Assembly: GCF_029893325.1 (NCBI RefSeq)
Contig: NZ_JARXWL010000003.1
Span: forward strand, 1 to 64,000
DNA: 64,000 nucleotides
Direction of reading: 5' to 3'
From: Enterococcus sp. PF1-24
GTDB lineage: Bacteria > Bacillota > Bacilli > Lactobacillales > Enterococcaceae
The position numbers and the translations under genes were made by a program. Numbering within the stretch: the first letter of the stretch is position 1; each line of letters begins with the position of its first letter. The notes below the pieces were generated by a model that did no database searches, was not told the origin of the DNA, and saw only the letters and a program-made list of their open reading frames with translations. Of this stretch, positions 2,624 through 48,424 are shown piece after piece.

Positions 2624-4408
2624 ATGCGTAATCAACGTGAGATATCTCGGTACAATAAACGTATCGATAATCGTAAAAAAACTGAAAAGAGCATGGCCAT
2701 TTTAGGGACGGCTATGATTTCATGTACAGCTTTATTACCACTTACACCAACTATTCAAGCGGAAGCGACTAATACAGCAAATGTCGATCCATCAGCTTTT
2801 ATTAGAGAAATTGGCAGCTATGCTAGCGGTATTGCAGCAGCTAACGATTTATACGCTTCAGTTATGATGGCTCAAGCGATTGTCGAAAGTGGTTGGGGAA
2901 CTAGTGCTTTAGCATCAGCACCAAATTATAACTTATTTGGGATTAAAGGCAATTATAACGGACAAAGCGTAGCGATGCCTACTGGAGAATATTTAAACGG
3001 TCAGTGGGTCACTATTACGGATAGTTTCCGTAAATATCCATCTTATGCAGAGTCATTTGCAGATAATGCTTATTTATTGAAAAACCAATCTTTTGGTGGC
3101 GGCACTTATTACTATTCTGGTGCTTGGAAGAGCAATACTTCTTCTTACCGCGATGCAACTGCTTGGTTAACTGGCCGTTATGCAACGGATCCTAACTATT
3201 CAACTAAATTAAACAATATTATTACTACTTATAATTTAACTCAATATGATACAGGTGGCGCAGGCGGCGGTATCGGTGGCGGAATTAGCTCAGGTGGTAG
3301 CACAAGTGCAACACCAAGCGCTAACGGTCAAACTTATACTGTACAATCTGGTGATACTTTATATCGCATTGCTTTAAATCATAATGTTACAGTTTCTGAT
3401 TTGAAAGCTTGGAACGGTTTAAGTAGTGATAGAATTCAAGCTGGCCAACAATTAGTGATTGGTCAAGGTGGCGGCGAAAGCGCACCAACTAACACCACGA
3501 CAGCACCAAGTAACGGCGCAACTTACACTGTTCAGTCTGGCGATACTTTATACCGAATTGCGTTAAACAATAACGTAAGTGTTGATGAAATTAAAGGCTG
3601 GAATGGTTTAGCTGGCGACGGTATCCAAGTCGGCCAACAATTAGTTGTTTCTGCAAATGGTGGCGGGGCAGCCGCACCTGCTGAAAGTACTAATAATGGT
3701 GGCGCAGGTGGCACTTATACCGTGCAATCTGGCGATACCTTATATCGCATTGCTTTAAACAATCAAGTGAGCCTTGCTAATCTGAAAAGTTGGAACAATT
3801 TAACTAGTGATACGATTTATGTCGGTCAACAATTAAATGTTGGTAGTGGGGCAGCAACACCACCCGCTTCATCAGCACCAGCTAATAATCCTGGCGGCGT
3901 TTATACCGTACAAGCCGGCGATAATTTATATCGGATTGCTTTGAAAAATGGCGTCAGCGTTGCTGATTTGAAAGGCTGGAACGGTTTAACTAGTGATAAT
4001 ATTAGCATTGGCCAACAATTAGCGCTTTCTGGCTCTAGCGCAGGGGCACCAGCTCCCGTTGCTCCAGCCGCACCAAGTACACCAGCACCAAGCAATGGCG
4101 CAAAATACGTTGTACAATCAGGTGATAATTTATACCGCATTGCTTTAAATCACAATATTAGCGTCGATCAATTAAAAGCTTGGAACAACATCTCTGATGA
4201 TTCCGTTTATGTGGGTCAAGAGTTAACAGTTTCTGGTAATGGCGGCGGTACAAGCGTTAACGGTGAAGAAAAATATAAAGTTAAATCTGGCGATACTTTG
4301 TACTCAATCGCTAAAAAACATGACTTAACAGTTGATAAATTGAAAGAGCTGAACAATTTAACTTCTGATGACATTCAAATTGATCAAGAATTGAAAGTTA
4401 AAGAATAA
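2624..4408 (+). CDS. Secreted GH73 muramidase/glucosaminidase with six LysM repeats (Mur-2/AtlA type)
   Basis: 594 residues. A long basic N-region and hydrophobic stretch ending near ...IQAEA (residue ~47) form a secretion signal. Residues ~55-210 are a GH73 peptidoglycan hydrolase domain, with catalytic glutamate candidate E88 in AQAIVESGWG and the NLFGIKG block. A glycine/serine-rich linker leads to six LysM domains (about 236-280, 300-343, 364-408, 425-469, 492-536, 549-593) separated by Ala/Pro/Ser/Gly linkers. LysM binds peptidoglycan, so the enzyme should act on the wall during growth or cell separation. The architecture matches E. hirae Mur-2. GGAGGG lies 8 bases before the ATG. Monocistronic, with a terminator downstream. 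Confidence 0.9.
   Translation: MRNQREISRYNKRIDNRKKTEKSMAILGTAMISCTALLPLTPTIQAEATNTANVDPSAFIREIGSYASGIAAANDLYASVMMAQAIVESGWGTSALASAPNYNLFGIKGNYNGQSVAMPTGEYLNGQWVTITDSFRKYPSYAESFADNAYLLKNQSFGGGTYYYSGAWKSNTSSYRDATAWLTGRYATDPNYSTKLNNIITTYNLTQYDTGGAGGGIGGGISSGGSTSATPSANGQTYTVQSGDTLYRIALNHNVTVSDLKAWNGLSSDRIQAGQQLVIGQGGGESAPTNTTTAPSNGATYTVQSGDTLYRIALNNNVSVDEIKGWNGLAGDGIQVGQQLVVSANGGGAAAPAESTNNGGAGGTYTVQSGDTLYRIALNNQVSLANLKSWNNLTSDTIYVGQQLNVGSGAATPPASSAPANNPGGVYTVQAGDNLYRIALKNGVSVADLKGWNGLTSDNISIGQQLALSGSSAGAPAPVAPAAPSTPAPSNGAKYVVQSGDNLYRIALNHNISVDQLKAWNNISDDSVYVGQELTVSGNGGGTSVNGEEKYKVKSGDTLYSIAKKHDLTVDKLKELNNLTSDDIQIDQELKVKE
3329..4405 (+). repeat. Six tandem LysM-coding repeats
   Basis: Six related units of about 135 bases each begin with a TAYACYGTNCAATCTGGYGAT-like block, alternating with variable low-complexity linkers. 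The central units are the most alike at DNA level, so copy number could vary by recombination. Confidence 0.85.
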
Positions 4409-4414
4409 AAATTG

Positions 4415-4447
4415 ATAAACCTCCAGTTTTGGAGGTTTATTTTTTTG
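4415..4447 (+). terminator. Rho-independent terminator after the muramidase gene
   Basis: Stem ATAAACCTCC / GGAGGTTTAT with a 6-base loop, followed by a run of T. Confidence 0.85.
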
Positions 4448-4492
4448 TTGTGAGAGGTGCAGAACAAGCTTCTCCGCTTTTTGATAAAAAAT

Positions 4493-4521
4493 TTGCTTAA
4501 TCTTATAAAATTTGCTAGTAT
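4493..4521 (+). promoter_or_regulatory. Promoter of the leuS T-box transcript
   Basis: TTGCTT (4493-4498) and TAGTAT (4516-4521) are 17 bases apart; transcription would start near 4528, just before the T-box leader. Confidence 0.55.
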
Positions 4522-4529
4522 AAAGCTAA

Positions 4530-4772
4530 ATTGAATAGTTTGGCTTTGATAGAGGAGTAGTAAAACTGATGATTTTGTTAGAGAGTGCATGGTTGGTGGG
4601 AATGCATAGATTGGCGGTTTGAACTTACCTTTTAGCTATTTTCCTAAAAAATAGGGACGCAAAGCTGCGTTAAAAGCAAGAGGTCTATATGCAAATATAG
4701 ATGAAAATAGGTGGTACCACGTAATTTACGTCCTATAAAAGAAGGCAACTTTTTTTATAGGGCTTTTTATTA
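4530..4772 (+). promoter_or_regulatory. Leucine T-box riboswitch controlling leuS
   Basis: The T-box sequence GGTGGTACCACG lies at 4710-4721; its UGGU would pair with the ACCA end of an uncharged tRNA. Upstream is a long stem I region with GAACTTACC near 4621-4629, where CUU is the likely leucine specifier codon. A terminator follows, CCTATAAAA / TTTTATAGG plus a T-run (4732-4770). Uncharged tRNA-Leu would stabilise the antiterminator and switch leuS on. Confidence 0.9.
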
Positions 4773-4809
4773 TTTCCAATTAAATAAACTTTCAAAGGAG
4801 AAATAGGTA

Positions 4810-7323
4810 ATGAGTTTTAATCATAAGGTCATTGAGAAAAAATGGCAAAAATATTGGGCGAAAAATAATGTTTTCAATACCCACGATGAAGGGGATAAAC
4901 CGAAATTTTATGCTTTAGATATGTTTCCTTATCCGTCAGGGCAAGGTTTGCACGTTGGGCATCCGGAAGGTTATACGGCAACTGATGCGTTATCTCGTAT
5001 GAAACGCAGCCAAGGATACAACGTCTTGCATCCAATGGGTTGGGATGCCTTTGGTTTACCAGCAGAGCAATACGCTTTAGATACTGGGAATGATCCGGCT
5101 GAATTTACTAAGAAAAATATCGAAACTTTTAAACGTCAAATTAACTCTTTGGGCTTTAGTTATGACTGGAATCGTGAATTGAATACTACCGATCCTGAAT
5201 ATTACAAATGGACCCAATGGATTTTCACTAAATTATATGAAAAAGGCTTGGCTTATGAAGCTGAAGTGGCGGTTAACTGGGTGCCAGAATTGGGTACAGT
5301 TATCGCTAATGAAGAAGTCATTGACGGAAAAAGTGAACGTGGCGGCTACGATGTTGTCCGCAAACCAATGCGTCAATGGATGTTAAAAATTACTGCTTAC
5401 GCTGATCGTTTATTAGATGATTTAGAAACGGTTGATTGGCCTGAAAGCATCAAAGAAATGCAACGGAACTGGATTGGTCGCTCAGTTGGGGCCAATGTTA
5501 CCTTTAAAATTGCTGATAGCCAAGAAGACTTCACCGTTTTCACCACACGACCTGATACTTTATTTGGGGCAACTTATGCAGTTTTAGCACCAGAATTGGC
5601 TTTAGTTCAAAAAATCACGACCCCTGAGCAACAAGCAGCGGTAGCAGCTTATATTGAAGAAGCGGCTAAAAAATCTGATTTAAACCGGACGGATTTAGCG
5701 AAAGAAAAAACCGGCGTCTTTACCGGTGCTTATGCCATTAATCCTGTCAATAATCAACAAATTCCAATTTGGATTGCCGATTACGTTTTAGCTTCTTACG
5801 GAACTGGGGCGATTATGGCGGTGCCAGCCCACGATGAGCGAGATTACGAATTTGCTAAAACTTTCGATTTAGAAATTATTCCTGTTTTGGCAGGTGGCGA
5901 TGTGACGAATGAAGCTTTCGTTGGCGATGGTCTTCACATTAACTCTGGCTTCCTTGATGGCTTAAACAAAGCTGATGCCATTGAAAAAATGAACCACTGG
6001 CTGGAAGAACAAGGCGTTGGTAAAAAAGAAGTTAGCTATCGTTTGCGGGATTGGTTGTTCTCTCGTCAACGTTATTGGGGTGAACCAATTCCCGTGATTC
6101 ATTGGGAAGACGGCACAACCACAACGATTCCTGAAGAAGAATTACCATTACGTTTGCCGAAAACCGATGATATTAAACCAAGCGGTACGGGCGAATCACC
6201 TTTAGCTAACATTACTGAGTGGGTGAACGTGGTTGACCCCGTAACTGGTAAAAAAGGTCGTCGAGAAACTAACACTATGCCACAATGGGCAGGTAGCTCA
6301 TGGTATTATTTACGCTATATTGACCCACATAATAAAAAAGAATTAGCTAATTATGAAAAATTAGAGCGTTGGTTGCCAGTAGATATTTATATTGGTGGCG
6401 CTGAGCACGCGGTTTTACATTTATTATATGTGCGTTTCTGGCATAAATTCTTGTATGATATCGGCGTAGTGCCAACTTCAGAACCTTTCCAAAAATTATA
6501 TAACCAAGGTATGATTTTAGGAACTAGCTATCGTGATAGCCGTGGCGCGTTGGTACCAACTAACATGGTAGAAAAACGCGATGGTCAATGGGTGAATATC
6601 GAAAACGGGGAAGCTTTAGAAGAAGCACCAGCTAAAATGAGTAAATCGCTGAAAAACGTTGTCAACCCTGATGATGTGGTGGAACATTACGGCGCGGATA
6701 CGCTAAGAATGTACGAAATGTTCATGGGACCTTTAGATGCTTCAATCGCTTGGAGCGAAAACGGTCTGGAAGGTAGCCGTAAATTCTTAGAGCGGGTATG
6801 GCGCTTAATAGTCGATGAAAACGGCAAAATGCGAGATCGCATCAGCACCTTTAACGATGGTAAATTAACTAAAGTTTATCATCAAACAGTTAAAAAAGTT
6901 ACCGAAGATTATCAAAGTCTACACTTTAATACCGCGATTTCACAATTAATGGTCTTTGTGAATGAAGCATATAAATCTGAAGTCTTACCTTATGAATACG
7001 TTGAAGGCTTTGTCCAGTTATTAGCGCCAATCGCTCCGCATTTAGGGGAAGAATTATGGGAAATCTTAGGCAACCAAGATGGTATTTCTTATGTTTCTTG
7101 GCCGACTTATGACGAAAGCCAATTGGTGGAAGACAAAGTTGAAGTTGTTTTCCAAGTTAACGGTAAATTGCGAGCAAAAGAAAATGTTGCCCGTGATTTA
7201 AGCAAAGCTGATTTAGAAGCTGCTGCGATGGAAAATGCAGCTATCAAAGAACAAATTGCTGGCAAAACTATCCGCAAAATCATTGTTGTACCAAATAAAT
7301 TAGTAAATATTGTAGCAAATTAA
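4810..7323 (+). CDS. leuS: Leucyl-tRNA synthetase
   Basis: 837 residues, a class I synthetase that charges tRNA-Leu. The HIGH-type motif is HVGH at 48-51, inside [16 protein letters not shown], and KMSKS is at 609-613. The CP1 editing domain (threonine-rich TTRPDTLFG and [15 protein letters not shown] blocks) lies between. The C-terminal anticodon-binding and leucine-specific regions are complete, ending in a lysine/valine-rich tail. AAAGGAG precedes the ATG. Expression is governed by the T-box leader. It is transcribed alone and ends in a bidirectional terminator. Confidence 0.97.
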
Positions 7324-7328
7324 AAAAA

Positions 7329-7390
7329 GAATGTCCCGGCTGGAAAAACTAGCTTTGCGCTAAGTTTAGCCAGCGGGACATTCCCTTTTT
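7329..7390. terminator. Bidirectional terminator between leuS and the 7398 gene
   Basis: Inverted repeat GAATGTCCCGGCTGG / CCAGCGGGACATTC with an A-run before and a T-run after, so it can serve both converging genes. Confidence 0.85.
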
Positions 7391-7397
7391 TCCTATT

Positions 7398-7778
7398 TTA
7401 AATTTCTCGGCAAGCGATATAGGGACCAACGGGGAGTCGGGGATATCCTATGACAAAGGTTTGTAATTGAGGCTTAGTGACAGTAGCTTCATAGAGTGTT
7501 TCCCCTAAATAAAAGCGAATTGGTTTTTGTTTGGAGACAAATTTTAGCGGAACACTTTCGTTTTTTTCAGCATAGTGAATAATTTCAGCGACAATTTGCG
7601 GTTCAGTAGCTTTTTCAGGAAAATCGTCTTGCGGCTCAATCGAAAAGCCTTTTTTAGTCCAAGCATCTTTAAATTTGTTTAAATAACTACTCACTTTTAA
7701 GAACAACTCCATTCCTAATTTATAGAAAATCTGCCTGTTGCTTGAAGTAGAAAATACAGTCTGTGCATCCGTTTTCAT
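7398..7778 (-). CDS. Hypothetical small soluble protein
   Basis: Up to 126 residues. I do not recognise the family and see no signal peptide, membrane segment or metal motif. The middle is charged (KNESVPLKFVSKQKPIRFYLGE) and the end is YPRLPVGPYIACREI. The first ATG overlaps a TATAAT (7783-7778) and has no Shine-Dalgarno sequence. If that hexamer is a real -10, translation would have to start later, for example at the internal Met at 7712 (about 104 residues). It stands alone and converges with leuS. Confidence 0.55.
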   Translation of the reverse strand: MKTDAQTVFSTSSNRQIFYKLGMELFLKVSSYLNKFKDAWTKKGFSIEPQDDFPEKATEPQIVAEIIHYAEKNESVPLKFVSKQKPIRFYLGETLYEATVTKPQLQTFVIGYPRLPVGPYIACREI

Positions 7779-8076
7779 TATAACGCTTTTTCTTAATGAA
7801 ATATATTGGACTAAAGGCTTAGAAGATGGGGAATAGGCGATTTTTTATGAAAAAATCAAAAGACTAGGTTATTTCTGAAGTAACAGACTATTATTCTGAA
7901 CAAATATGCGTAAATTTCCGGAAAATTTTCAGATAATCTGACTTTTTTTCTGATTTTTCCTGAGTTATAAAAAAAATAGGAAAAACTCTTTAAAGATTTG
8001 CGAAAATAGATTGCTAGTTCTATCGTTTACAATTAAAATAGAAGTAATGTTTTGTGGAAAGTTGGGACCCTTTTTT

Positions 8077-12889: not shown

Positions 12890-14241
12890 TCCCTAAGTAA
12901 TTCCTGCTCTTTCTCCAGCCCTTGCAATTGTTTGACTGCTTTAAAGTAAGAATACAAAAGCACCACCACTGAGCCAATCCACGCTAACGGAGAAGCGCTA
13001 GCAGCTCCGGCATAACCGAAAATCCCCGTTAAGAAAATCGCCGCTAAAGAACGCATAATCAATTCCATAATGCCGGCAATCGTCGGAATCACACTCTGCC
13101 CTAAACCTTGTAAAGTATAGCGAATAATAAATAAAATCGCTAAAATCCAATACATTGAGCCGTTAATATTGAAATAAATTTGCGCCAATTGAAAGACTCT
13201 GGTTTCTGACTGATTCACAAAGAGCTGCACTAAATTATGGCCAAAAGTGATGACGGTTACGCCGGCGATAATACTAAAACCACAGCTTAATAACAGCGAT
13301 TGTTTAACGCCAGTTAAAATCCGTCCATATTTTTTAGCACCATAGTTTTGAGCGGTAAAGGTTCCCATGGCAACGCCAAATGACATCATCGGCTGCGTAG
13401 CAAATTGGTCAATCCGTCCAGCTGCTGCTTGAGCGGCAACTTCATCGGTTCCTAAACTGTTTAAAGCACTTTGTAAAATCACCGCGCCAATCGCGATAAT
13501 TGAAGTTTGAAAAGCCATCGGTAAAGCGATATTTAAATGGTCGCGGATTTCTTTTTTATCAATGACAAAATCACTTTTACGTAGTTGTAAATTAGGCACT
13601 TTGAACTTAATAAAAATAATACAAGCGATACTGGAAGCTAGCTGCGCCAAAATCGTTGCATAAGCTGCACCAGCAACCCCCAAATGGAAAATGACGATAA
13701 AAGTTAAATCCAACCCCACATTAACAATCACGGCAATCGTTAAAAAGAGCAGCGGCGTCCGACTATCTCCCAGAGCCCGAATCATATTTGAAAGTAAATT
13801 GTAAGAAACCGAAGCAAAAATCCCAGCTAAAATCACCGAAATAAAACTTTTAGCCAAATCGAAAATTTCGGCTGGCGTTTGCATTAAAGTCAGCATTGGC
13901 CCTACTAATAGTAAGCTTAAAGCTGTTAAAACAACGGTCACGCCCATACAAATAATTATACTAGTGGCAAAACTGCGTTTCACCCCTTTATAATCTTGCG
14001 CCCCAAAGCGCTGCGCCGTTAAAATCGACAACCCCGACGTTAACCCTTGAGCAAAACCCAGAATTAAAAAGGTGATACTGCCGGTAGCTCCCACCGCCGC
14101 CAAAGCGTTTTTCCCTAGGGTCTGCCCGACGATAATCATATCCACCATGTTATAAAATTGTTGAAAAATATTCCCAATTAATAAAGGAATGGTAAAAAGG
14201 AAGATGAGTTTAATTGGACTTCCTGTTGTTAAATCACGCAC
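12886..14241 (-). CDS. MATE-family multidrug/cation efflux transporter
   Basis: 451 residues with about 12 membrane segments in two halves. The N-terminus MRDLTTGSPIKLIFLFTIPLLIG and the block NMVDMIIVGQTLG are typical of the DinF/MepA-like branch of MATE exporters, which exchange drugs for Na+ or H+. The start is a GTG supported by GGAGGG six bases upstream. It is transcribed alone. The substrate cannot be told from sequence. Confidence 0.85.
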   Translation of the reverse strand: MRDLTTGSPIKLIFLFTIPLLIGNIFQQFYNMVDMIIVGQTLGKNALAAVGATGSITFLILGFAQGLTSGLSILTAQRFGAQDYKGVKRSFATSIIICMGVTVVLTALSLLLVGPMLTLMQTPAEIFDLAKSFISVILAGIFASVSYNLLSNMIRALGDSRTPLLFLTIAVIVNVGLDLTFIVIFHLGVAGAAYATILAQLASSIACIIFIKFKVPNLQLRKSDFVIDKKEIRDHLNIALPMAFQTSIIAIGAVILQSALNSLGTDEVAAQAAAGRIDQFATQPMMSFGVAMGTFTAQNYGAKKYGRILTGVKQSLLLSCGFSIIAGVTVITFGHNLVQLFVNQSETRVFQLAQIYFNINGSMYWILAILFIIRYTLQGLGQSVIPTIAGIMELIMRSLAAIFLTGIFGYAGAASASPLAWIGSVVVLLYSYFKAVKQLQGLEKEQELLRE

Positions 14242-14426
14242 TGTTTCCCTCCATCTATCTAAATAAAAATTAAAAAGTTTATGCTAATAAGTTATCTTAG
14301 CATAAACTCGTTGCTTTGCAATGGATAAAATCATTACAAAAATGGGTATATTTTGTTTTTTCTGCTATAGAAAAGGCTTACTGTTTTAAATTGTGCATGG
14401 ATTTTGCTACTGCACTAAGTGCCAAC

Positions 14427-14455
14427 TTGCATTCCTCCGCTTTTTCTAATAAGAT
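14427..14455 (+). promoter_or_regulatory. Possible promoter of the two-component system
   Basis: TTGCAT (14427-14432) and TAAGAT (14450-14455), 17-base spacer. Confidence 0.4.
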
Positions 14456-14491
14456 AATTTTAAGTGAAAAAACGAGAAAGCAGGTGAGTTG

Positions 14492-15184
14492 ATGCAACAA
14501 CATAATAAGATTTTTTTAGTGGAAGATGATGAAAAAATTTGTCAGATTCTGCATGATGAATTAGAGAAATGGGCCTATGATGTGGCGGTGGTTAGTGACT
14601 TTCAAAAGGTTTTGGCGGAATTTCAAGAATTTCAGCCGGATTTAGTTTTGTTAGATATTTCGTTGCCTTATTTTAATGGTTACCATTGGTGTCAAGAAAT
14701 TCGCAAAGTATCGACGGTGCCGATTTTGTTTTTATCTTCAGCTAATGACAAGATGAATCAGTTGATGGCGATGAACATGGGTGGCGACGATTTTATCGGT
14801 AAACCTGTCGATTTAGATTTATTAGTAGCAAAGTTGCAGGCAGTTTTTCGTCGGAACTATACTTTTATTGAAAATGACCAGGAATTAGTTTATCAAGAAG
14901 CGGTGTTAAATGTTTTGGAAGGAGAATTGCGCTTAGGGGAAAAACGCGTCAACTTAACTCCGACAGAAACTAAAATTGTCGCTTTATTATTTGCTAACGC
15001 AGAAAAAACCGTAACGAAAGAAGCGATTATGGAAAAATTGTGGGAAAGCGAAGAATTTATTAGCAAAAATACTTTGACGGTGAATATGACGCGCTTGCGG
15101 AAAAAGCTCAACGCTAATGGGTTTCCGACTTTGATTCATACCATAAAAGGCATGGGCTACATGTTGGTGAAAAAAGATGCGTAA
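14492..15184 (+). CDS. OmpR/PhoB-family response regulator (BceR/SapR type)
   Basis: About 230 residues. The receiver domain carries the acidic pair EDDEK and phospho-acceptor D55 in LVLLDISLP, with the conserved lysine in GKPVD. A winged-helix DNA-binding domain fills residues ~130-230. The sequence resembles BceR/GraR-type regulators that respond to cell-envelope antibiotics. In E. faecalis the equivalent pair SapRS controls bacitracin-responsive ABC transporters encoded elsewhere. I use the ATG at 14492 rather than the TTG just before it, because AGGTGA is too close to the TTG. It overlaps the kinase gene by 8 bases. Confidence 0.88.
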   Translation: MQQHNKIFLVEDDEKICQILHDELEKWAYDVAVVSDFQKVLAEFQEFQPDLVLLDISLPYFNGYHWCQEIRKVSTVPILFLSSANDKMNQLMAMNMGGDDFIGKPVDLDLLVAKLQAVFRRNYTFIENDQELVYQEAVLNVLEGELRLGEKRVNLTPTETKIVALLFANAEKTVTKEAIMEKLWESEEFISKNTLTVNMTRLRKKLNANGFPTLIHTIKGMGYMLVKKDA

Positions 15185-16199
15185 AATTGTTAGTTTTATC
15201 GGGGAAGTATTGAAAGAAAATCTTGCTTTTATCAGTATTTATTTAGTGGTAGTGGCTTTGTTTGTTAGTACTTTTTATTTACATGATGTGGCTTTTGCTG
15301 TTTATAGCGATGCTTTATTTTTTACTTTGCCGGTACTAGGGATTTTTCTGTGTTATCGTGGTTGGCGCTTATGGCGGCAACATCAATTTTTAGTGAAGTT
15401 GCAAAAACAGCCCTGGTTTCAGTTGTTAGAAGAGGATTTTGTTAAAGGCGGCTTGTTGGAACGGGATTATCGACAACTTTTACAAAAAGTGTCGCAACAA
15501 ATTCAGCGATTAAATTCTGAAGCGGAGATTCAGGAAAAAGAATTAATGGACTATTATGGTTTGTGGACTCATCAAATAAAAACTCCTTTAGCGGCTTTGG
15601 ATTTAATGGTGCAGCAAACCCAACCGCCAATAAATAAAGAAATGAAAGATGAACTTTTCAAAATTCAGCAGTATTTAGATATGATGTTGCAATATTTACG
15701 CTTGCAGTCGATTCATAATGATTTCCGCTTTGAAACCTTTACCTTAGAAGAATTGGTGAAAAAAGTCATTAAAAAATATGCGAGTTTCTTCATCTATAAA
15801 GATTTAGAAGTTCAATTGGACAATTTAACTGGGAAAATCACTACTGATGAAAAATGGTTTTGCTTTATTTTAGAGCAAGTGATTTTCAATGCGATTAAAT
15901 ACACAAAAACTGGCGGGATTACGATTTTTTCACCAGCTGATTCAGCAGGTGCGTTGCATATTAAAGATACCGGCCAAGGGATTTTAGCTGAAGATGTCCC
16001 GCGGGTTTTTGAAAAAGGCTATACCGGTTTTAATGGTCGGGAAAATCAAAAAGCTAGTGGCTTAGGGCTGTTTATGAGTCGTGAAATTGCGCAACAGCTA
16101 GGAATTGAAATTTCTTTAACTTCAGAAATTGGTATTGGCACGGAAGTTGTTCTAGTCAGTCAACAAGGCTGGCAAAAAGAATGGAAAAAGGAACGATAA
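15177..16199 (+). CDS. Intramembrane-sensing histidine kinase (BceS/SapS type)
   Basis: 340 residues. Two N-terminal membrane helices joined by a very short loop (residues ~15-62) leave almost no extracellular sensor, the layout of BceS-like intramembrane kinases. The H-box is WTHQIKTPLAAL with H132. The N, G1 and G2 boxes (NAIKYTK, DTGQGI, GLGLFMS) are intact. Such kinases normally sense drugs through a BceAB-type ABC transporter, yet none is adjacent. The start overlaps the regulator stop, which suggests translational coupling. Confidence 0.88.
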   Translation: MRKIVSFIGEVLKENLAFISIYLVVVALFVSTFYLHDVAFAVYSDALFFTLPVLGIFLCYRGWRLWRQHQFLVKLQKQPWFQLLEEDFVKGGLLERDYRQLLQKVSQQIQRLNSEAEIQEKELMDYYGLWTHQIKTPLAALDLMVQQTQPPINKEMKDELFKIQQYLDMMLQYLRLQSIHNDFRFETFTLEELVKKVIKKYASFFIYKDLEVQLDNLTGKITTDEKWFCFILEQVIFNAIKYTKTGGITIFSPADSAGALHIKDTGQGILAEDVPRVFEKGYTGFNGRENQKASGLGLFMSREIAQQLGIEISLTSEIGIGTEVVLVSQQGWQKEWKKER

Positions 16200-44694: not shown

Positions 44695-44700
44695 GTGAAA

Positions 44701-44748
44701 AAAATCTCTTTGCCAGCCGCGATTTGTGGTAAAGAGATTTTTTTATTT
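44701..44748. terminator. Bidirectional terminator
   Basis: AAATCTCTTTGCCA / TGGTAAAGAGATTT flanked by A and T runs; closes the ABC operon and the opposing sigma operon. Confidence 0.85.
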
Positions 44749-44753
44749 TGCGC

Positions 44754-45548
44754 TTAATGATGTTGTTCTCGGTGATGTTCGTTATTGCTAGTGTTATTGG
44801 TTTTTGATTCAGTAGCGGAATCAGTTGTTTTTTCTTTATGTTGCTTACCGTTTCCATTTTGTTTTCGTTGACGCTTCTGATGACAGTTATCAATTTCTTG
44901 ATAAATTTCTGATAGCGAATGGTGACGACAAGTTTCAAAAGAAGCAGTTTCGTCTAGCTCTTGCAGTTCTTTAATTGCTAAGTATCTAGCAGGAGTGACG
45001 GCTTCGATTGTGGCTGCCGTTTTGGTAGCTTCGTCAATTTCAAAAACTTGATAGTTAACTGTTTGTTGATGGTGAGCTAAGCTGGTGGTTACTTGCTTTT
45101 CTAAGTTTTTTTGCCATTTTTCAGCATTTTTTTTTTTTGTTTGAACAGAAATTGCTAATTGAGCATCAGGGGTCAGCAATTCTTCTTGAGAAAATTCAGC
45201 AACTAACAGGTTGACTGCTTGTTGATAAGATTTATTTTTCAAAGAAAGCTTAGTTAAAATTTCTTCTCCATCTGCATTATAAGCTTTCACGTCAATGATT
45301 CGCTGGAACGGATTGACGGTTAATTCCAAGCTGGGATTAACATCAATATCCACATAGGCCGCTTTGCTGTAATAAGTGGAATAGGCGATGAATAATAAGC
45401 AAGCGAAGGCACAAGCGATACCGTAAATTATTTTGGTTGCTGGCTTGCGCTTTTTTTGTTGACGTAAAGGGAGATTGGCTAGCGTTTTTTGTTTCAATTC
45501 GTCAGTTGCTGTGATTGATTGAAATGCTGTATTCAATTTATCCTTCAA
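44754..45548 (-). CDS. RsgI-like anti-sigma factor with His-rich tail
   Basis: 264 residues. A cytoplasmic N-terminus (~45 residues) is followed by one transmembrane helix (~42-62). The extracellular domain begins AYVDIDVNPSLELTVNPFQRIIDVKAYNADG, the hallmark of RsgI-type anti-sigma factors. The C-terminal ~60 residues are hydrophilic and histidine-rich (HQKRQRKQ, HHREQHH), which could bind metal. It overlaps the sigma gene by 11 bases, so the two are co-translated. Clostridial RsgI proteins sense polysaccharides; here the tail suggests another signal. Confidence 0.8.
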   Translation of the reverse strand: MKDKLNTAFQSITATDELKQKTLANLPLRQQKKRKPATKIIYGIACAFACLLFIAYSTYYSKAAYVDIDVNPSLELTVNPFQRIIDVKAYNADGEEILTKLSLKNKSYQQAVNLLVAEFSQEELLTPDAQLAISVQTKKKNAEKWQKNLEKQVTTSLAHHQQTVNYQVFEIDEATKTAATIEAVTPARYLAIKELQELDETASFETCRHHSLSEIYQEIDNCHQKRQRKQNGNGKQHKEKTTDSATESKTNNTSNNEHHREQHH

Positions 45549-46023
45549 AATAATCCGCCCCCAATTCTTTTTGTAGCTGCTCTCGTCCCCGTGCTAGCCA
45601 AGTGTAAATGGTATTGCTTTTCTTCTTTAAAATATCCGCAATTTCAACTGCTGAATAACCTTCTATGTAAAAAAGATAGATGACTTGACGATAATTTTTA
45701 GGTAAGCGGGTCATGGCGGTTAAGATTTCTTGGTTTTCTTGTGGTAAGGTAGCAGGTTCAGCGACTAATTGCTCTAACGGAATAACATTTCGCTTGAAAA
45801 AATTCTTTAAATTATCTTTGCTAGTGTTGATAGCAACCCGAATAAGCCATGCCTTTTCGTGAGCATCGCTTTGAAAGGGTTCCGTCCGCAGGAAGTATTT
45901 TAAAAATACTTCCTGAAAGACGTCTTCCGTATCTTGAACATTTTTTAATTGGATAAAACAAATCCGTTGAATCATGTCAGCGTATTTATCCATTGCTGCC
46001 GCTACGGCTGCTTCACTAGCCAC
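45538..46023 (-). CDS. ECF-type RNA polymerase sigma factor
   Basis: 161 residues. Region 2 (TEDVFQEVFLKYFLR) and region 4 (LPKNYRQVIYLFYIEGYSAVEIADIL...TIYTWLARGREQL) are both present, with no region 1 or 3, so this is a compact ECF factor. GTG start 8 bases after AGGGAT. It should recruit polymerase to ECF promoters such as the one before the Cys-His protein gene in its own operon. Confidence 0.88.
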   Translation of the reverse strand: MASEAAVAAAMDKYADMIQRICFIQLKNVQDTEDVFQEVFLKYFLRTEPFQSDAHEKAWLIRVAINTSKDNLKNFFKRNVIPLEQLVAEPATLPQENQEILTAMTRLPKNYRQVIYLFYIEGYSAVEIADILKKKSNTIYTWLARGREQLQKELGADYFEG

Positions 46024-46057
46024 GTTTTAATCCCTACATTTCTATAAAAGCTTTCGA

Positions 46058-46579
46058 TTAATGATGATTTCCGCCATTATTGTGTTGTTTCCTATGTTGT
46101 TCTTGTTGACCGTGATTCCCACTCCAAGTGGTATCTGGCGCCGTTTGCTGCTGGTGTTGGTGAACGCCGGTTTTGCCACAATTATCCACGCCGCAATTAT
46201 AAGTAAAGTTAGTTTCTTGTTGGGCCGTTTCTTGGTGTTGATGAAAACCGTTCTCTTCGCAAGTCGCTATACCACAATTATAAAAAGTAGCTGACTCTGT
46301 GTTGTCGCTCCAGTTGTTGTGCTGATGGTCGCTAACTTCTAGGCAATTTTCAACAGGACAATTGCTTTGCTTTTTAGGAAAATAACCAATTCCTTGATGT
46401 TGATGAAACCCGTTGGAAGTGCAGTTTTCTTGATTACAGCTTTGCGGCTGGCGTGCTGCCAATTCTTCGACTGTAATTGTTGCTAAATTGGGTTTTGGTT
46501 GATTGTTTAACGCCGCAGTTGAAAGACTAGCGTTTCCTAAAAATAAACTAGCTGTTAAAGTGATGATTAAATGATTCAT
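46058..46579 (-). CDS. Secreted protein with four C-x4-C-x5-H-x-H repeats
   Basis: 173 residues with a signal peptide (MNHLIITLTASLFLGNASLS). Four copies of exactly C-x4-C-x5-H-x-H occur at C48-H61, C74-H87, C102-H115 and C129-H142, spaced 26-28 residues apart; typical units read CGVDNC...GVHQHQ. The tail is rich in His, Gln and Asn (HRKQHNN...NHH). Each unit offers a CCHH site for zinc, copper or a similar metal. I know of no named family. The ATG at 46579 is 6 bases after AGGGAA. First gene of the sigma operon, 34 bases before the sigma gene, behind an ECF-type promoter. Confidence 0.8.
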   Translation of the reverse strand: MNHLIITLTASLFLGNASLSTAALNNQPKPNLATITVEELAARQPQSCNQENCTSNGFHQHQGIGYFPKKQSNCPVENCLEVSDHQHNNWSDNTESATFYNCGIATCEENGFHQHQETAQQETNFTYNCGVDNCGKTGVHQHQQQTAPDTTWSGNHGQQEQHRKQHNNGGNHH

Positions 46580-46619
46580 GTAATTCCCTGCTTTCACTAT
46601 TTTTTTACCGTACACTTAT

Positions 46620-46648
46620 AATACGATTCAAGCAGGGAAATCCTTTCA
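46620..46648 (-). promoter_or_regulatory. ECF-type promoter of the sigma operon
   Basis: On the minus strand TGAAAG (46648-46643), 17 bases, CGTATT (46625-46620). This follows the TGAAAC-N16/17-CGTA pattern of ECF sigma promoters and suggests autoregulation. A sigma-A reading of the same region would need a 20-base spacer. Confidence 0.65.
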
Positions 46649-46703: not shown

Positions 46704-47327
46704 TTACATGTTTTTAATGACAACACGAGCGATTAAATCAACGATTTGCTCACAAACGTTAACGACGTTTTCTAATTGATCGAAGATGTCTTTCCATTTA
46801 ATGACTTCGATAACAGGCACGTCAGTTGTGAATAAAACTTTAGTTAAGCTGCTATATAGTTCGTCCGCTTGCGTTTCTGCGGCGCTAACTTCTTTAATCA
46901 TTTGTGCTAGTTTTTTAGAATTTTTAAATTTTGAAAATTCTTTAGTAGCCACTAATAAACCTGAAGTTGCAGTAGCGATACATTCCACTAAAGCGTCGGT
47001 ATTTGGTCGTATTTCAGTAACTGCTAAGTTTTCAAATAAATAAGTTGTACTGTTGATGCCGTCAATAACATCATCTAAACGTTCCGTAATTTCAACAATA
47101 TCTTCGCGGTCGATTGGTGTAATAAAAGAATCATATAGCTCAGCCATTACTTCCGAAACGATTTCATCCGCTTGGTGCTCTAAATCATGAATTTTTTCAG
47201 AAGTGGTTGCTAAGTTTTCGACTCCGTAATTCTTAACTAAAGTATCTAAATGAGTCGCTGCTTCAGCCGTCCATTGTGCTAATTTTACTAAAGAATCAAA
47301 ATAATTATATTGTTTTTTTCTAGCCAT
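46704..47327 (-). CDS. DUF47-family phosphate transport accessory protein
   Basis: About 207 residues, all-helical, PhoU-like: HDLEHQADEIVSEV and FITPIDREDIVEITERLDDVIDGI are family signatures. DUF47 proteins typically accompany and modulate Pit phosphate transporters. The ATG at 47327 (MARKKQYNYF) is chosen, with GGGGTG upstream. It lies directly downstream of the pit gene on the same strand. Confidence 0.88.
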   Translation of the reverse strand: MARKKQYNYFDSLVKLAQWTAEAATHLDTLVKNYGVENLATTSEKIHDLEHQADEIVSEVMAELYDSFITPIDREDIVEITERLDDVIDGINSTTYLFENLAVTEIRPNTDALVECIATATSGLLVATKEFSKFKNSKKLAQMIKEVSAAETQADELYSSLTKVLFTTDVPVIEVIKWKDIFDQLENVVNVCEQIVDLIARVVIKNM

Positions 47328-47410
47328 GTTTTTACACCCCATAATTTTTCTTTTAAATCAGTTTGTATAATTAAGCTTTGCTCGTGAGCTGAACGAGCCC
47401 TTTCTGCTTT

Positions 47411-48424
47411 CTAAAATAACATCATAAATAATTTGGCCATGATAAAGGCAATAGCGCCGCAGCCTGGGAAAGTTAAAATCCAGGCGATGAGCATTTCTTT
47501 AACGATTTGCCAATCGACACTGGATAAACGGCGAGAAGCGCCGACACCCATGATGGCAGTTGTTTTTGTATGTGTTGTTGAAACGGGAATCCCGAAAACG
47601 GAAGCTAAGAACAAGCAAATTGCTGCGCTAAAATCGGCTGAAAAGCCTTGATAACGTTCTAATTTTACCATGTCCATCCCAACAGATTTAATAATTCGCA
47701 TGCCACCAACGGAAGTTCCAAAGCCCATTGTCAATGAACATAAGGCCATCACCCAAAGTGGAATGGTAAAGCCGTTACCGGTTTTTTCTGCTAAATTGTT
47801 GTAGTAGAGGCCTAACATGAAAACCCCCATAAATTTTTGACCATCTTGCGCCCCGTGTAAAAAGGCATTTGCCGCTGCGGCAATTCCTTGACCGGTAGTA
47901 AAGAAGCGATTCGCTTTGCGCCGGGAAACATTGGCAAATAAAACTACCAATAACTTAGTGAATAAATAACCTCCACCAAAACCAAGCACTGTCGACATGA
48001 CCAGTCCGATTAAAACTTTCAGCCACTCACCGCCGTTAACTGCGCCTATGCCACCTAAAGCCATAGCTGAGCCGGTTAAGCCAGCAATTAAAGCGTGAGA
48101 TTCACTGGTAGGAATTCCGAAATACCAAGCGGCTACTGACCAAACGACAATTGAAAATAAGGAAGCCGCTAAAGCAACCTGTGAAGCGTTCCCTTGGCCG
48201 TCAAAACTAACGATATTACTGATGGTTTCAGCAACCTGTGAATTGAAGTAAGTCATTACTAAAGCGCCACAGAAGTTCATGGCGACCGCCAACCAAATGG
48301 CTGTCCGGGGTTTTAAAACGCGGGTTGAAACGGCTGTTGCGATGGCATTAGGAGCATCGGTCCACCCATTAACAAAGATTACGCCTAAAACCAGTATAAT
48401 TGTCACAAAAAATGCAATACTCAT
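47411..48424 (-). CDS. pit: Low-affinity inorganic phosphate transporter, Pit family
   Basis: 337 residues, about ten membrane segments, with the duplicated PiT signature: GWTDAPNAIATAVSTRVL at the N-terminal half and FGIPVSTTHTKTTAIMGVG at the C-terminal half. Imports phosphate with a cation. GAGGTGA precedes the ATG. Operon with the DUF47 gene. Confidence 0.9.
   Translation of the reverse strand: MSIAFFVTIILVLGVIFVNGWTDAPNAIATAVSTRVLKPRTAIWLAVAMNFCGALVMTYFNSQVAETISNIVSFDGQGNASQVALAASLFSIVVWSVAAWYFGIPTSESHALIAGLTGSAMALGGIGAVNGGEWLKVLIGLVMSTVLGFGGGYLFTKLLVVLFANVSRRKANRFFTTGQGIAAAANAFLHGAQDGQKFMGVFMLGLYYNNLAEKTGNGFTIPLWVMALCSLTMGFGTSVGGMRIIKSVGMDMVKLERYQGFSADFSAAICLFLASVFGIPVSTTHTKTTAIMGVGASRRLSSVDWQIVKEMLIAWILTFPGCGAIAFIMAKLFMMLF

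Follow-up and report, generated by a model that had tools for sequence, protein, structure and literature searches.

ECF factors control extracytoplasmic metal proteins in several settings, such as the copper bufferins and the Cnr nickel system. The signals perceived by RsgI-type self-cleaving sensors outside polysaccharide degraders are, to our knowledge, largely open. RsgI signalling in C. thermocellum is described as proceeding from periplasmic autocleavage through RseP to ClpP with an AAA+ unfoldase (PMC12203970), and SigI promoters are characterized by an A-tract and a CGWA motif (PMC10575876). The lysozyme-linked SigV-RsiV pair has been described as well (PMC4183432, PMC5014341).

Here, we analyze a three-gene operon in a 64,000-nucleotide stretch of DNA from Enterococcus sp. 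PF1-24 (the whole stretch analyzed, hereafter the window). The operon represents a recurrent and apparently undescribed ECF-RsgI module: no description of an ECF-RsgI operon with such secreted proteins turned up in the searchable open-access literature, in agreement with an earlier note on this DNA that knew of no account of the combination. With a probability of roughly 50%, we interpret it as an autoregulated envelope-sensing operon, responding to a presumed extracellular signal, the output of which is a secreted, putatively metal-binding Cys2His2 protein.

The operon and its secreted Cys-His protein

The full transcription unit, a promoter-like element and three genes, occupies the minus strand of the window from 46648 to 44754. 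The genes are arranged in the order secreted protein, ECF sigma factor, anti-sigma, and the anti-sigma gene starts within the 3' end of the ECF gene (45548 versus 45538, minus strand). On the upstream side, the operon is insulated by the intrinsic terminator of the PiT/PhoU_div genes (46697-46669, minus strand; 12-pair stem in the terminator scan). An inverted repeat with a T run, spotted by eye at 44699-44740 (minus strand), is the likely terminator of the operon itself; its 13-base loop exceeds the limits of the terminator scan. The claim of a single operon is supported by its structure and insulation and by conservation from the window's family to Clostridia. The adjoining upstream pair, a PiT phosphate transporter and PhoU_div (DUF47) at 46704-48424, has its own terminator and is ordinary.

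The first gene (46058-46579, minus strand), delineated by its reading frame and motif units, encodes a 173-aa protein with a signal peptide at approximately residues 1-23, as judged by eye. The protein contains 8 Cys and 14 His residues, and all eight Cys are used by the four exact C-x4-C-x5-H-x-H units that the earlier note had described and that the motif search recovered in full on the minus strand: CNQENCTSNGFHQH (residues 48-61, 46397-46438), CPVENCLEVSDHQH (residues 74-87, 46319-46360), CGIATCEENGFHQH (residues 102-115, 46235-46276), and CGVDNCGKTGVHQH (residues 129-142, 46154-46195). A GTG start at 46615 was discarded: about 5 nt separate it from the -10 element, which places it no later than the transcription start to be expected there. 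The possibility that the four units arose by chance was rejected as well, none of 200,000 shuffles of the mature part having reached three units (maximum, two).

Homologous Cys-His units were identified in loci L004, L062, L063, L074, and L075. The C, C, H, and H positions are invariant in nine units from two genomes, and the Cys/His positions are also invariant in further Clostridia units, the longer of which contain an extra invariant His. Searches of the protein against Pfam and NCBIfam, metal-binding and zinc-finger families included, gave nothing above cutoff; a match to OAF_C (E 0.0015) is under the gathering score of that family. Its AlphaFold2 model is unstructured, which fits a chain that folds only upon metal binding and proves nothing. 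From the ligand chemistry and the invariant ligand positions, we infer that the Cys2His2 units bind Zn- or Cu-like ions.

The ECF factor and its RsgI-type partner

The second gene (45538-46023, minus strand) encodes a 161-aa protein with matches to Pfam Sigma70_r2 (7.6e-8) and Sigma70_r4_2 (2.6e-14), that is, regions 2 and 4 without region 3, next to an anti-sigma gene, which bears out the earlier assignment as an ECF sigma factor. It is 54-57% identical to the ECFs of L004, L062, and L075 and scores far under every NCBIfam equivalog cutoff (SigV, SigW, SigM, and SigC included), the best match being PRK09415, with 115 bits versus a cutoff of 198.

The third gene (44754-45548, minus strand) encodes a 264-aa membrane anti-sigma that consists of a short cytoplasmic part, one transmembrane (TM) helix, an RsgI_M (SEAL-type) domain (PF23750, 1.6e-30), and a short tail. 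The AlphaFold2 model, built with seven homologues, has a pLDDT of 80, with values higher than 90 for the greater part of the extracellular domain and the tail modelled as disordered; its best PDB fold matches are the RsgI periplasmic domains of B. subtilis and C. thermocellum (best E 3.8e-9). Alignment to solved RsgI chains places a predicted self-cleavage site (DVNPS) at Asn71-Pro72 (codons at 45333-45338, minus strand). The site is in register, given that four solved, cleaved C. thermocellum RsgI chains start exactly at the residue aligned by sequence to Pro72, and by homology to RsgI the anti-sigma is predicted to cleave itself there.

The SigI-binding RsgI_N domain gave no match in this protein (PF12791, searched up to E 1), and the adjacent partner is an ECF factor instead of SigI; therefore, judging by sequence, the protein is an ECF anti-sigma with an RsgI-type sensor and not a canonical RsgI. 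RsgI_N is present in the SigI-linked RsgI of L063. The original description of an RsgI-like anti-sigma thus stands for the extracellular RsgI_M domain of a TM sensor and fails for RsgI_N. Likewise, the His-rich extracellular tail that it mentioned is real in the window, with eight His in about 60 residues, but is not a conserved property, the tail in L075 being Gly/Asn-rich.

One alternative is that the module senses polysaccharides or surfaces, as in cellulolytic clostridia, with the anti-sigma detecting a polymer and the secreted protein serving at the surface or in adhesion. Substrate sensing is indeed described for the RsgI proteins of C. thermocellum (PMC12203970), and some secreted proteins of sister operons have weak dockerin or Excalibur calcium-loop scores. 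Against this, the domain search found no carbohydrate-binding module in the anti-sigma, the tail is short and modelled as disordered, and the sugar ABC genes that adjoin the window operon are not kept next to the orthologous modules examined. We consider this explanation highly improbable.

The promoter and the related loci

The ECF-type promoter proposed in the earlier note, TGAAAG-N17-CGTATT, is present on the minus strand at 46620-46648, with TGAAAG at 46648-46643, a 17-nt spacer, and CGTATT at 46625-46620. In its extended form, TGAAAGGAT-N14-CGTATT, it was detected with at most one mismatch 5' of the first gene in 12 of the 13 orthologous loci (the window, L004, L062, L075, L077, and L079 to L085), L078 being the one in which it was not found. 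No such site was seen in 20 control ECF loci, which amount to some 135 kb over both strands. Three Bacilli ECF-RsgI loci, L012-L014, contain the sigma/anti-sigma pair and the promoter as TGCAAGGAT-N14-CGTAT, with one or two mismatches, and no secreted gene between the promoter and the sigma gene.

The recurrence in orthologous loci puts the promoter above chance, and its retention over wide distances, in front of first genes that themselves differ, strongly supports regulation of the operon by its own ECF factor. On the strength of this conservation across loci, from the window's family to Clostridia, the promoter is probably autoregulated, in line with the self-activation suggested earlier. 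A housekeeping promoter, the sigma-A alternative raised at that stage, was rejected: the sigma-70 scan yielded no minus-strand site in the region, and sites were no more numerous than in shuffled sequence. The only other exact match to TGAAAG-N17-CGTAT in the genome falls inside an ABC-transporter gene, so that no second exact match occupies a promoter position, and the operon itself is probably the principal target of its sigma factor. A wider regulon was rejected on this exact-match search, with its one intragenic hit, and on three further matches in genome G019, all within long reading frames.

Among 106 genomes of the window's family, the anti-sigma was found in one other, G019, which belongs to a different genus and has the order ECF, RsgI, secreted protein, the latter with five C-x4-C-x5-H-x-H units. 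When 278 Clostridia genomes were searched with four ECFs, the best match exceeded 170 bits in ten of them, the next reaching 161. Altogether, the sigma/anti-sigma pair is found in one other genome of the window's family and, among Clostridia, in at least nine. Since homologous loci extend to a second genus of this family and to Clostridia, a single-genome oddity can be rejected. Spread on mobile elements was also rejected, as no ECF relative was confirmed in viral contigs and no RsgI relative was found on plasmids.

The intact Clostridia loci of the ECF search share one architecture, in which a small secreted protein is followed by the ECF factor and an RsgI_M protein. The secreted protein itself is exchanged: Cys-His units are present in 4 of the 13 loci, the first gene encodes a DxDGDGxCD loop protein in L077, L078, L080, L082, and L084 (the last truncated by a contig end), and another Cys-rich protein takes this position in L079, L081, L083, and L085. 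In sequence terms, then, the module keeps the sensor, the sigma factor, and the promoter and swaps the secreted protein. The small proteins of the DxDGDGxCD group contain YVDADGDGVCDN-like EF-loop motifs with a Cys inside the loop; the two that were scanned, from L077 and L078, belong to no curated family. L085 is a decayed copy, in which the promoter and the secreted gene are intact, the ECF frame is broken by a TGA, and the anti-sigma gene is missing.

Profile searches in Clostridia recovered L062 and L047, which have the gene order of the window and two longer units with a further conserved His. L075, also from Clostridia, has this gene order too, with one unit within a Cys-rich protein. 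L074 contains a Cys-His gene and no sigma gene within the available sequence. Of the weak profile matches, those examined (L048-L050, L056, and L057) showed no matching operon.

Secreted Cys-His genes accompany RsgI-type anti-sigmas of both the ECF and the SigI kinds. In L063 (5476-7490), the Cys-His secreted protein is encoded divergently from a true SigI-RsgI pair, and an A/T tract with a CGTA motif located 5' of the Cys-His gene could be a SigI-type promoter. Comparison of the loci also revealed a CRHHS motif in the extracellular part of the window anti-sigma (residues 207-211; 44916-44930, minus strand), with CREHS, CRDHS, and FKHHS as counterparts in three other Cys-His loci and CRNSS in L075. 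In most operons with other secreted proteins, the anti-sigma lacks CRxHS and has a Cys pair elsewhere in the outer domain.

These associations would suit a dedicated anti-sigma partner, that is, a secreted protein that docks on the RsgI-type domain in a free, metal-loaded, or disulfide-linked form and either tunes the threshold or turns the switch off, which would amount to feedback and not buffering. In its favor, the Cys-His proteins follow RsgI-type domains irrespective of the sigma type, CRxHS-type motifs go with Cys-His partners, and the Cys pair goes with most other Cys-containing partners. However, the RsgI tree groups the Cys-His-linked anti-sigmas together (L063 weakly), and because the motif follows this tree, ancestry is enough to explain the correlation; the co-occurrence appears to be largely a matter of common descent. 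The Bacilli loci L012-L014, with pair and promoter and no such gene in between, also speak against such a partner. We regard this explanation as rather unlikely.

Another explanation, which we find unlikely, is a general envelope or thiol-redox stress response, in which the secreted surface protein would be sacrificial or cross-linking, its Cys would act as thiols, and any metal would be incidental. Cys is common to all the exchanged proteins, whether Cys-His, DxDGDGxCD, or Cys-rich, and the conserved outer-domain Cys pair in most anti-sigmas of the other operons points in the same direction, but thiol chemistry would require neither so strict a C-x4-C-x5-H-x-H spacing nor the extra conserved His. 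The metal hypothesis remains plausible from the sequences yet too narrow for the whole module: metal capture is not necessarily the shared purpose, given that in sister operons the same promoter precedes genes for different kinds of secreted protein.

Some observations concern individual loci. The L079 anti-sigma (1967-2806) is an RsgI_M protein with LDADGS in place of the Asn-Pro cleavage motif, and having lost this motif, the sensor may signal without self-cleavage. In G019 (L061, G019:C41:22000-37867), a VanC/E/L/N-type cluster (3346-7997) lies directly upstream of the ECF-RsgI-Cys-His module, with a D-Ala-D-Ser ligase above cutoff, VanXY just at cutoff, and VanT as two open frames; a D-Ala-D-Ala carboxypeptidase comes before it. 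The same locus also encodes, about 1.8 kb further downstream than the Cys-His gene, a heavy-metal P-type ATPase of the Zn/Cd type, the N-terminus of which is His-rich, along with an ArsR/SmtB regulator (13319-15627). These metal-ATPase neighbours are suggestive of a metal theme and are not conserved in the other loci examined.

The proposed circuit and its relation to known systems

In the circuit that we favor, an autoregulated envelope-sensing operon with a metal-binding output, the ECF factor would be kept at the membrane by the anti-sigma, the outer RsgI/SEAL-type domain of which, by homology, would cut itself at Asn71-Pro72 and stay non-covalently joined. An extracellular signal would part this domain, whereupon a site-2 protease and Clp would destroy the anti-sigma, as in the RsgI pathway. 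The released ECF factor would then transcribe its own operon from TGAAAGGAT-N14-CGTATT, a step supported by conservation across loci. The first output would be a bead-on-a-string secreted protein, whose Cys2His2 units, given their invariant ligands, may bind soft or borderline metals (Zn, Cu, or similar) and so buffer or capture extracellular metal.

This model is favored by the insulation of the operon, the RsgI_M domain with its fold and cleavage register, the conservation of the promoter and its single genomic occurrence in promoter position, the invariant C, C, H, and H, and the travel of Cys-His proteins with RsgI-type anti-sigmas. The other secreted proteins in sister operons, the uninformative AlphaFold2 model of the secreted protein, L079 without Asn-Pro, and L074 without a sigma gene in the available sequence weigh against it. 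More speculatively, the ion bound by the secreted protein may also be read by the Cys/His motif of the anti-sigma. The secreted protein would then serve as an output and, at the same time, as a component of the sensor, in a new kind of extracellular metal (or thiol) switch, of which sister bacteria retain sigma factor, promoter, and sensor and swap the partner. We hold this extension to be tentative and on the doubtful side.

In this compact module, a single conserved promoter predicts the regulon as well as the secreted effector, over the whole range from the window's family to Clostridia. The first genes, being interchangeable, form a natural series with which to probe what the sensor detects, and since the output consists of a single small protein whose ligands are regularly spaced, one laboratory strain suffices for tests of signal and function.

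Among described systems, the module resembles SigI-RsgI (B. subtilis; SigI1-9/RsgI1-9 of C. thermocellum) in the outer RsgI_M/SEAL domain, the Asn-Pro site in register, the single TM helix, and the probable cascade of autocleavage, site-2 protease, and Clp (PMC12203970). It differs in that the sigma factor is an ECF, RsgI_N and a carbohydrate-binding module are absent, the promoter is TGAAAG/CGTATT as opposed to the A-tract/CGWA of SigI (PMC10575876), and the operon includes a small secreted protein. With Gram-positive ECF operons such as SigV-RsiV, it shares an ECF factor with regions 2 and 4, a co-transcribed TM anti-sigma (PMC4183432, PMC5014341), an autoregulated promoter, and activation via regulated proteolysis, the last two predicted in the case of the window; the RsgI_M sensor domain, the distance of the ECF from the SigV, SigW, and SigM cutoffs, and the metal-ligand-rich secreted protein encoded first in the operon set it apart.

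The likeness to bufferins and Cnr is confined to the broad principle that an ECF factor governs a metal-binding protein, here putative, outside the cytoplasm, with no sequence similarity claimed, and the window operon lacks a maturation enzyme and a CnrX-like sensor. Counterparts of the secreted protein are the small Clostridia DxDGDGxCD proteins, which are likewise encoded first in the operon, after the same promoter, and have EF-loop-like Asp ligands plus Cys, in contrast to the Cys2His2 units of the window.
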